DNA of 26,016 nt, taken from the IMG/VR virus record IMGVR_UViG_3300020205_000694, positions 1 through 26,016 of that record; one strand, 5' to 3'. A program made the position numbers and the translations under genes. A model generated the notes under the pieces. It saw only the letters and a program-made list of their open reading frames with translations. It did no database searches and was not told where the DNA came from. The stretch is from a virus. Below are positions 12,804-20,865 of this stretch, piece after piece (position 1 is the stretch's first letter; each line of letters starts with the position of its first letter).

Positions 12804-13805
12804 TTAAATGTACCCCACTGAATTGTTCATATATCCACCTTGTACAAATCTATCAAGACTAAAGTTTCGAGTACTTGCTCTGCTGTAGGCAGGTATTAAT
12901 GTAACTGCAATTGTACTCTTTGTAGGAACATGTGCTGTACCACCGCTTGTTGACCCGCCAACTCCAAAACTACCTAATAGGCTTGCTACTTGACCAACAC
13001 CGCCTGCTATACTACTTACCGTACTTGTAATTCCGCTTAACTGCGGAAGGGCGCCGCCTACTGCATCAGCAAGGCCGCCAATACTATCAGCAATGCCAGC
13101 AATCTCTCCGGCAGCACTTCCTACTACGTCACAGCTAATATAATCACATTCTTTGCTTAGAGTAATTTTCATAGACTGTATTACTACTGGTATGTTTTTA
13201 AACACGTATGCTCCATATCCGTTTAATTTTACAATTGGTGGAGGGTTTCCGGCCTTAGGATCATATCCTGAAAACATTTTTGTTGCTGAACGCAAATAAT
13301 GAACACAAGCAATCCAGTATAATGCTTGCGAACTATCTTCTACGTTAAAATCGCCAGTTATAGATATTGTGCCAGGATCACTGTTTGAATAGGCCTGAAA
13401 GGGGTAATTACTGTGTATAGGAGTAACTGGGGTATATTTTGCTGCACTACTAATTGCTATTTCTGGAGTATATGGAAATATAAATCCGCCAGCATCTTTC
13501 AATGGTTTTAATACGGCACTGTTTTTAAAGCTGACCCAGTTTGGAAGGCTTAACTTAACTCGCCAATCATTAGGATTATCGCCGCTGCCACCAAACATGG
13601 AGATAGCACCCATAATATCACCAACTGCTTCACCTGCCGCTGGTAAGTTTATTGATCGTATTGCAGATCCTACCATGTCCGGGCCACTAATATTAGACAG
13701 TGCCGACCCTAGTCGCTGTGCAGTGCCAATTGCGGCAGTTGCCGCACCAAACGTTGCTGTAGTTGCCGCAATTTTTGATTGTAAATTTTGTCCTTTGATT
13801 GCCAT
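12804..13805 (-). CDS. Baseplate-tail tube junction protein, gp54/gp48-like
   Basis: I start this 333-residue protein at the ATG at 13805 (MAIKGQNLQSK), because AAAGGGA lies 7 bases upstream; a TTG 18 bases earlier only adds residues that overlap the ribosome site. The core is GGFIFPYTPEIAISSAAKYT (about 100-120) followed by DFNVEDSSQALYWIACVHYL and GNPPPIVKLNGYGAYVFKNI. This is a pattern found in cyanophage-type tube-cap proteins of the gp48/gp54 group, which end the baseplate and start the tube. The flanks (1-75, 235-290) are Ala/Gly/Ile-rich and low complexity. First gene of the minus-strand tail operon. I cannot tell gp48 from gp54; an unrelated tube-like structural protein is also possible. 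Confidence 0.55.
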   Translation of the reverse strand: MAIKGQNLQSKIAATTATFGAATAAIGTAQRLGSALSNISGPDMVGSAIRSINLPAAGEAVGDIMGAISMFGGSGDNPNDWRVKLSLPNWVSFKNSAVLKPLKDAGGFIFPYTPEIAISSAAKYTPVTPIHSNYPFQAYSNSDPGTISITGDFNVEDSSQALYWIACVHYLRSATKMFSGYDPKAGNPPPIVKLNGYGAYVFKNIPVVIQSMKITLSKECDYISCDVVGSAAGEIAGIADSIGGLADAVGGALPQLSGITSTVSSIAGGVGQVASLLGSFGVGGSTSGGTAHVPTKSTIAVTLIPAYSRASTRNFSLDRFVQGGYMNNSVGYI

Positions 13806-17765: not shown

Positions 17766-18191
17766 ATGTCATGGACTTATCAAAATGAACTTGTTGAAAC
17801 ACTTCCCGAAGATTGTGTTGGGTTCGTGTACTTGATAACCAATGACATCTCTGGCAAAAAGTATATAGGCAAAAAATTAGCCAAGTTCGCAAAAACTACC
17901 TACAAAGTAGTCAAGCTAAAGAACGGAACTAAGAAAAAGAAGAAGATTCGTAGCAAAGTTGACAGTGATTGGAGAGAATATTATGGCTCCAGCGATGCGT
18001 TAACAAAAGACATAGACACATTAGGCAAAGAAAACTTCAGTAGAGAAATCCTATATTACTGTACATCCAAGGCGCAATGCTCTTACATCGAGGCCAGAGA
18101 ACAATTTTCCCGCAAAGTTTTAGAAAGTAATGACTATTATAACGGACATATTGCTGTTCGTGTACATGGTTCGCATATACTCAAAGGCTAA
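17766..18191 (+). CDS. GIY-YIG nuclease-like protein
   Basis: The 141-residue protein has a GIY-YIG-type core: GFVYLITN (19-26) and KKYIGKK (31-37) correspond to the two name-giving motifs. A Lys-rich insert (about 50-64) follows, then DWREYYGSSDAL with a candidate catalytic Arg, then ENFSREILYYC and SYIEAREQF with a candidate Glu. The closing NDYYNGHIAV is also typical of phage members. No separate DNA-binding domain such as that of I-TevI is visible. Last gene of the early operon, 3 bp after the previous stop. It could be a stand-alone homing-type nuclease or a structure-specific nuclease working with gp46/47; the sequence cannot decide. Confidence 0.7.
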   Translation: MSWTYQNELVETLPEDCVGFVYLITNDISGKKYIGKKLAKFAKTTYKVVKLKNGTKKKKKIRSKVDSDWREYYGSSDALTKDIDTLGKENFSREILYYCTSKAQCSYIEAREQFSRKVLESNDYYNGHIAVRVHGSHILKG

Positions 18192-18401
18192 TAATTCAGG
18201 CTGTTTAACTGCCAAATAAGCCCGCACCGGCGACTAATTTGTGCCCCGAATCCGTTCTGATGTGTGACGGCAGGGTATTCTGAGTGGCAGCAGAGACGTA
18301 AATCAGTATCCTTAACAGGACCACGATGGAATATGCCTACATACAATCCGTTTGATTTATAAGAGAAATTTTAAACAAGGCTAAAAGAGGGAGAAATACC
18401 C

Positions 18402-18442
18402 ACGGCTTATCGCATGTTAACGTATGCTTTGAGACCCGCCGT
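18402..18442 (+). other. Two-part stem: ACGGC/GCCGT enclosing GCAT/ATGC
   Basis: ACGGC (18402-18406) pairs with GCCGT (18438-18442), and inside it GCAT (18412-18415) pairs with ATGC (18424-18427). Short, but nested correctly and within a GC-rich patch. Confidence 0.35.
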
Positions 18443-18516
18443 TGTATAAAGACTCAGCTCGTGGTACCGGACAACCGCCACTGTAATGCTGTAACGTTAA
18501 GTGAACTGGTCAACTC

Positions 18517-18566
18517 AGATAATGTTCATTTTTTGCCCGCCAGGGCAAAGTGTGACTGAACAATCT
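18517..18566 (+). other. Long hairpin with three stacked stems
   Basis: AGAT/ATCT, TGTTCA/TGAACA and TTTGCCC/GGGCAAA nest in order, closing on a GCCA loop (17 base pairs in all, with an AA bulge and one internal loop). No U-run follows it on either strand, so it is not a classical terminator. Confidence 0.6.
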
Positions 18567-18579
18567 AGATAATATTTAC

Positions 18580-18592
18580 AGTGCTTCGCACT
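18580..18592 (+). other. Small hairpin AGTGC-TTC-GCACT
   Basis: Five perfect base pairs around a three-base loop, 14 bases after the long hairpin. Too short to stand alone, but part of a series. Confidence 0.35.
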
Positions 18593-18620
18593 TAATAGTT
18601 CTTATAAAAAAGAAACAATA

Positions 18621-18646
18621 TGTGTTAGAGCGATAGCGATAACACA
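18621..18646 (+). other. Hairpin TGTGTTA/TAACACA
   Basis: Seven perfect base pairs enclose a 12-base purine-rich loop (GAGCGATAGCGA). It is immediately adjacent, with no spacer, to the next hairpin. Confidence 0.5.
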
Positions 18647-18664
18647 GAAGAACGTTAGTTCTTC
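18647..18664 (+). other. Hairpin GAAGAAC-GTTA-GTTCTTC
   Basis: Seven perfect base pairs with a four-base loop, followed only by TTAATA. It could stack coaxially on the preceding stem. It ends 12 bases before the late-type promoter element and could also serve as a weak end point for early transcripts. Confidence 0.5.
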
Positions 18665-18675
18665 TTAATACAGTT

Positions 18676-18683
18676 GATAAATA
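18676..18683 (+). promoter_or_regulatory. Late-type promoter element GATAAATA before the internal-protein gene
   Basis: GATAAATAT differs from the T4 late consensus in its first base and is the same form seen before the tape measure gene. The expected start near 18690 leaves a very short leader; GAGG (18691-18694) lies 8 bases before the ATG at 18703. Confidence 0.5.
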
Positions 18684-18702
18684 TCACATAGAGGATATAC
18701 AA

Positions 18703-19134
18703 ATGAAGATTTACGACATTATTAGCGAAACACAAGTTCAAGAAGGACCTGCTATTGATCTATTAAAATTAGCGGGCAGAGGAATTGCTTCTGGAGCTAA
18801 ATGGATAGCACAAACTGGCTCACGTAGAGACCTCGTTGATATAATGTCAAAGAATAGTCAGATTATTAGAGATACATTACGTGGAACTGCTCCTACTGCG
18901 GCACAGGTTGAAGCTATTTACGGACCTCGAGCAGGGCAAATGTTTGCTAATGATCCTAACTTTATGGCTAAAGTTCTTAAGAAATTCCATGCCGATAGAG
19001 CAATTAAAAAGTCTCCACCGCCCCCTCCTCCATCTAAAAATTCACCACTTGATCCAAATGCTCCACCAGTAGACCCAAATGCCCCAGGAGCTTTCACAAA
19101 AATAAGAAAATCGTTAACTCCAAAATTACATTAG
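18703..19134 (+). CDS. Putative capsid internal (injected) protein, N-terminal part
   Basis: The 143-residue frame starts MKIYDIISETQVQEG. This closely resembles the capsid-targeting peptide of T4 internal proteins (MKTYQEFIAEA), which the head protease gp21 cuts after an I/L-x-E triplet; here that would be I7-S8-E9. The body (10-105) is helical and basic. It is followed by a Pro-rich linker (SPPPPPPS, DPNAPPVDPNAPG) and then an abrupt end 15 residues after that linker. GAGG precedes the ATG. The following frame appears to be the rest of the same protein. Proteins of this kind are packed in the head and injected with DNA; what this one does in the host is unknown. Confidence 0.65.
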   Translation: MKIYDIISETQVQEGPAIDLLKLAGRGIASGAKWIAQTGSRRDLVDIMSKNSQIIRDTLRGTAPTAAQVEAIYGPRAGQMFANDPNFMAKVLKKFHADRAIKKSPPPPPPSKNSPLDPNAPPVDPNAPGAFTKIRKSLTPKLH

Positions 19135-20839: not shown

Positions 20840-20847
20840 GATAAATA
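20840..20847 (+). promoter_or_regulatory. Late-type promoter element GATAAATA before the tape measure gene
   Basis: GATAAATATAT is one base from the T4 late consensus, 43 bases before the ATG at 20891; the expected start is near 20854. AGGAAAA follows at 20879, before the start codon. Confidence 0.5.
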
Positions 20848-20857
20848 TATCATATAG

Positions 20858-20865
20858 TATTTATA
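20858..20865 (-). promoter_or_regulatory. Exact T4 late promoter TATAAATA before gene 26
   Basis: The minus strand reads TATATAAATACTAT, containing the exact T4 late octamer. The expected start near 20851 gives a leader of about 23 bases with GGAG before the ATG at 20828. Confidence 0.7.

Follow-up and report, generated by a model that had tools for sequence, protein, structure and literature searches.

A candidate free-standing structured RNA of T4-like phages with the orphan motif Polynucleobacter-1 as its 5′ domain

A structured noncoding RNA of about 460 nt was found on the plus strand of a T4-like phage record at about 18205–18665 (ends approximate), delimited by conservation and by covariation from 18209 to 18664; its existence at this locus is close to certain. 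It is probably a phage noncoding RNA gene in its own right, serving as a scaffold that acts in trans in the manner of GOLLD and ROOL. Only its first third was known to databases; the remainder, including the core, was unrecorded.

A gene-free gap with a partial Rfam match

The analysed DNA (the window, 26,016 nt) is a 26-kb viral record assigned to a T4-like phage by gene content (portal gp20, baseplate gp25 and gp53, T4_baseplate proteins); further genes are of the SbcC/gp46 type and the calcineurin-type phosphoesterase type. Against named phages, the portal protein reached at best about 50% identity, with jumbo phages such as PA5oct and Atu_ph07. The gap at 18192–18702 comprises 511 nt, and the remaining gaps between the main ORFs of the window measure at most 113 nt, as an earlier sequence-only reading had described: a gene-free stretch in a genome with almost no spacer DNA. 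The longest ORF inside the gap has 52 aa and runs antisense. Variability by codon position was 0.89/0.88/0.91 bits for the element (99 homologues), that is, without codon periodicity, compared with 0.54/0.41/1.27 bits for the adjoining gene by the same measure. A protein-coding reading of the gap was therefore dropped, no coding signal for a conserved protein having appeared in any frame. The GC-richness noted earlier is present but mild (gap 0.409 and element 0.426, window 0.373).

The window was scanned against Rfam, as the same reading had proposed, and one family exceeded its cut-off: RF01718 (Polynucleobacter-1) at 18219–18362 on the plus strand, a segment which that reading had missed (cmscan, 66.8 bits, E 2.2e-12, model positions 1–141 of 141; gathering cut-off 37 bits). 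RF01718 was over the cut-off in 39 of 50 related records too, and a permissive scan of 18100–18800 gave nothing else above chance. Polynucleobacter-1 is an orphan motif of 2010, listed by Weinberg et al. as probably RNA and probably cis-regulatory ('cis-reg: y'), with the entry 'Burkholderiales, fresh water/estuary' (PMC2864571). Within the searchable literature (subscription journals and supplements lying outside this scope), the motif was named only in that paper.

Covariation support and fold

Covariation was scored by a G-test with APC on 119 aligned elements, the non-redundant set among the matches listed. For the null, inferred substitutions were placed again along the tree in randomly drawn columns, following the R-scape principle but with our own script. 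Against this null, 35 pairs were obtained at E < 0.05, 23 of them canonical and two pseudoknots included, with observed scores up to 189 compared with a null maximum of 96 in about 4.3 million scores. In a 99-sequence subset, from which elements with a divergent 5′ domain had been removed, 45 pairs (24 canonical) were significant; several of the non-canonical pairs are neighbours or alignment noise. For a fixed-structure test, 48 sequences were aligned separately with MAFFT: 92.3% of the cells were paired (35–47% when the structure was slid), 236 cells were doubly changed (67 ± 7 in shuffles), and the covariation score was 0.437 (at most 0.118 when slid), counts that arise partly by construction because the structure was derived from related sequences. 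Folding of the single sequence beats chance only moderately (z = −2.55, 0/100 shuffles); the strong evidence is covariation, which has no power to separate contacts within one molecule from contacts between copies.

The compensatory changes that the sequence-only reading had suggested looking for were thus found in many helices, and its proposal of a conserved noncoding RNA is upheld by an Rfam match over the cut-off, covariation beyond the nulls and the lack of a coding signal. That the gap is instead conserved DNA, such as an origin or a recombination site, or structured by chance, would suit its position between early-type and late genes, but is scarcely credible in view of compensatory changes across so many helices.

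The 5′ part contains the helices P1, P2, P3, P5 and P6. P1 (18209–18211:18285–18287) lies partly outside the Rfam model (18209:18287, E 5e-3, and 1e-4 in the 99-sequence subset). Covariation also supports hairpin P2 (18224–18228:18240–18244) and stem P5 (18300–18305:18353–18358; 18304:18354 with E 1.2e-6, 18302:18356 and 18303:18355 with E 2e-5), inside which P6 is located (18325–18330:18347–18352).

The core domain (18403–18580) is the best conserved part and is matched by no Rfam family. Hairpin P8 (18405–18434) and stem P10 (18461–18465:18477–18481) are supported by covariation and by the fixed-structure count, and stem P9 (18455–18458:18488–18491) by the pair 18455:18491 (E 2e-4). The loop of P8 forms pseudoknot PK1 (18417–18423:18494–18500; 18420:18497, E 6e-3), which is paired in 80–99% of sequences and shows changes on both sides at all six pairs counted in the fixed-structure test. 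Pseudoknot PK2 (18441–18445:18471–18475) joins the strand 3′ of P8 to the loop of P10, its pair 18443:18473 being U-A or C-G (E 2e-4). Hairpin P11 occupies 18531–18550 (18534:18547, E 9e-6). Its 5′ arm, 18531–18535, covaries with 18546–18550 and, chiefly at one position, with 18447–18451: 18448:18534 reached E 1.6e-3, and 18448 is the same base as 18547 (E 1.9e-3, 119 sequences). The arm thus probably takes part in alternating pairings or in a triple; the second pairing is graded no higher than probable because 18448:18534 taken alone falls below significance in the 99-sequence subset.

Towards the 3′ end follow P12 with a UUC(G) loop (18580–18592, weakly supported), P13 with a GAGC-GNNA-GCGA tip (18623–18645; 18626:18642, E 1e-3) and P14 with 8 pairs (18646–18665; 18652:18659, E 8e-9; 18649:18662, E 8e-8). 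P14 is likely the end of the RNA; a simple terminator scan did not report it. Several hairpins had been marked beforehand from the letters of the sequence. Those at 18402–18442, 18621–18646 and 18647–18664 are supported by covariation, and 18580–18592 weakly; from the one at 18517–18566, the inner stem (18531–18538:18543–18550) stands and the flanks proved to be two unpaired repeats. Both pseudoknots and the lockstep behaviour of these repeats had gone unseen.

Two heptamers that change in lockstep

The repeats are two heptamers on the plus strand, AGAUAAU at 18517–18523 (copy 1) and its counterpart at 18567–18573 (copy 2), with the family consensus RSAURAW. Both are unpaired, and they change together by identity, not by complementarity: two positions alternate between A and G, a third among G, C and A, and a fourth between U and A. 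The copies were identical in 66 of 68 loci that had not been chosen by this motif. On the tree of the RNA, positions 18517 and 18567 changed on a shared branch in 24 of 26 cases and 18521/18571 in 11/11; on the GIY-YIG tree the figures were 34 of 34–36 and 20/20, respectively. A divergent element in L011 (3427–3950), missed by the core model R1 described below, has ACATGA in both copies, a lockstep of another kind. Each copy has its own invariant flanks (CUC...G for copy 1, UCU...A for copy 2), and gene conversion is an unlikely source of the lockstep because these fixed differences directly flank the 7-nt unit.

Other accounts of the heptamers were tried and rejected. As genome-wide promoters or repeats they failed, since the extended motif occurs in the window only here and the heptamers are no more frequent nearby than expected (264 observed against 264). 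A complementary target was sought as an exact 11-nt complement outside the element in 17 phage records, which gave sporadic extra matches and no consistent recurrence. Coevolution with the neighbouring GIY-YIG protein was not detected (best p 0.019 among 112 columns), and no third column in 18093–18702 covaried with the heptamers. Two readings remain: the heptamers touch each other, or both interact with a single partner.

Two identical seeds or protein sites that bind one common partner, making the RNA a sponge or a trans regulator, are a possibility that we hold to be rather unlikely; this is a special case of the trans-acting scaffold and not its opposite. The lockstep identity and the fixed, different flanks, which speak against gene conversion, are in its favour. 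Against it stand the lack of a consistently recurring complement, the lack of enrichment nearby and the number of lockstep switches (24–36), which is high for a coevolving protein. More doubtful still is a like-with-like pairing of the heptamers (A-A, G-G, C-C, U-U), which would be a parallel or pseudo-symmetric contact kept by evolution beside the strand that pairs by turns with two copies of one sequence.

Relatives and the exchangeable 5′ domain

The whole gap is conserved in about 65 relatives found via the GIY-YIG neighbour, mostly at 65–83% DNA identity and most strongly outside the Rfam part, at about 18390–18590. By a second route, a DNA-pattern scan independent of the GIY-YIG neighbour, relatives were collected as well, and at least 183 element-bearing phage loci were obtained, some of them overlapping stretches from a single contig. 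One clear copy was present in each large record (up to 346,856 bases). We take these phages to be freshwater phages, relying on the 2010 listing and general knowledge and not on sample data. One element-bearing phage record (L142) also carries a freshwater-2 RNA (RF02980, 77.8 bits) at 13570–13650 on the plus strand.

A model of the core, R1 (18403–18556), matched 92/92 chosen element-bearing loci at E ≤ 2e-6. In about 20 relatives among the matches listed (L019, L021, L043, L047, L061, L063, L092, L144, L159, L161, L189 and L196 among them), the core and the 3′ hairpins are preceded by another 5′ domain, which is structured too, carries CCCAUUGAGG, GGUGAGAUACC, CUUGGGCGUCAAAGG and GCUAACUUAAGG and has no Rfam match. 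Among 20 loci scanned because they were divergent, RF01718 was found only in L129 and L193 and R1 in all; the core is therefore constant and Polynucleobacter-1 exchangeable.

No DNA match to the element was found in 50,697 phage records or in 72,556 plasmid records, and the element model did not match any of six cultured phages, Melnitz included. An exact pattern run on 84,980 bacterial genomes gave a single match (L200), which is due to chance, as it scored 9.7 bits with E 0.4; this pattern recovers 48/68 known elements, so that absence from bacteria is unproven. RF01718 was over the cut-off in 0/398 genomes of one phylum, which had not been chosen by name; one sub-threshold match (L219, 25.8 bits) has no core.

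Gene neighbourhood and transcription

The RNA adjoins a SegE-like GIY-YIG gene (PF19835; 17766–18191, plus strand). Among the matches listed, 102 pattern-sourced loci could be tested, and in 97 of them this gene immediately precedes the RNA. A gene is inserted between the two in 4/102, and one element (L143), in a different gene neighbourhood, is the only one of the 102 without GIY-YIG on the fetched DNA. The pairing is not obligatory, the RNA being apart from the nuclease in 5/102 loci and GIY-YIG occurring without the RNA in several phages. Structured RNAs adjoining an endonuclease gene are familiar from HEARO and other nuclease-associated RNAs, and the present element might by analogy be the 3′ UTR or the partner RNA of the nuclease, forming a ribonucleoprotein. 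Since the element almost always follows the GIY-YIG gene, a function connected with this gene is conceivable, but such a partnership is improbable: there are the loci with an intervening gene or without the nuclease, the RNA is absent beside a 74% identical GIY-YIG (L072, L074, L076) and from Melnitz and other cultured phages, heptamer variants track no GIY-YIG residue, and a variable guide segment was not seen. The nuclease family also differs from that of HEARO.

On the other side, ATAAATA, the core of T4-type late promoters, is located at 18677–18683 (plus strand), outside the RNA and ahead of the next gene. In the window the motif further occurs at 20841, 25163 and 24916 (plus) and at 20864, 13831 and 8430 (minus), in all but one case no more than about 120 nt ahead of a gene start; the exception, 24916, is at a gene end. 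Among the matches listed, 60 of 65 distinct loci with a plus-strand next gene have TAAATA within 70 nt before its ATG; 3′ of the element, the motif was present in 2/47 loci whose next gene is on the other strand. The next gene thus has its own late promoter, and, judged by T4 biology, the RNA most likely belongs to the upstream transcription unit. A promoter at the 5′ end of the element was looked for and none was found, so the RNA may form one segment of a longer mRNA.

The 2010 rating of Polynucleobacter-1 would make the RNA a leader or riboswitch that regulates the downstream gene in cis, and the sequence-only reading had likewise offered a long regulatory leader. In the 2010 paper, RNAs often located 5′ of genes were as a rule presumed to be cis-regulatory (PMC2864571), and of the 142 loci with sufficient flank among the matches listed, 82 have the next gene on the plus strand. 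In the other 60 of the 142, however, it is on the minus strand, and the late promoter intervenes in 60/65 same-strand loci; on these two grounds a leader in the 5′ UTR was rejected. The downstream proteins add to this. A shared leader peptide, M-K-[IV]-x-[DE]-[IVL]-[ILV]-x-E, starts 60 distinct next-gene proteins (18703–19134 of the window and 79 loci) and looks like a capsid-targeting sequence on a variable cassette of internal proteins; without it, the proteins fall into 11 unrelated families. Regulation in cis is accordingly very improbable, and the RNA is, on this comparative evidence, very likely free-standing.

Relation to known RNAs and proposed role

GOLLD and ROOL are large phage RNAs of unknown function whose tertiary contacts are conserved (PMC12286853). 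They are the nearest in kind to the present RNA, which is likewise large, phage-borne, pseudoknotted and without a known protein partner, and which resembles GOLLD in that the 3′ region is conserved and the 5′ region variable. In contrast to both, it is shorter, matches neither Rfam model, and adjoins a GIY-YIG gene instead of tRNA genes, of which the window has none. GOLLD and ROOL form homo-oligomeric cages. Its likeness to Polynucleobacter-1 is a full-length match of the 5′ domain, but it extends about 300 nt further into a pseudoknotted core outside Rfam, resides in T4-like phages, appears free-standing and not cis-regulatory, and in some relatives has the core without that domain.

We lean towards a compact scaffold working in trans. 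Transcription of the RNA would be shared with the early or middle genes that precede it (46/47 and GIY-YIG side), and the transcript would stop at the 3′ hairpin, ahead of the late promoter that serves the next gene. The scaffold may set the two heptamers side by side, touching each other or bound to one partner, and could act during lytic growth, alone or with protein, along the lines of GOLLD and ROOL.

An orphan motif of 2010, rated a probable cis-regulator, now looks like an exchangeable terminal domain of a large, free-standing RNA of phages, and the small group of known large phage RNAs gains a candidate. Its boundaries, fold, phage context and lockstep heptamers make structure and partner directly testable. 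If true, the like-with-like contact would represent a rule of folding that covariation has seldom revealed, in a large phage RNA that may self-assemble.
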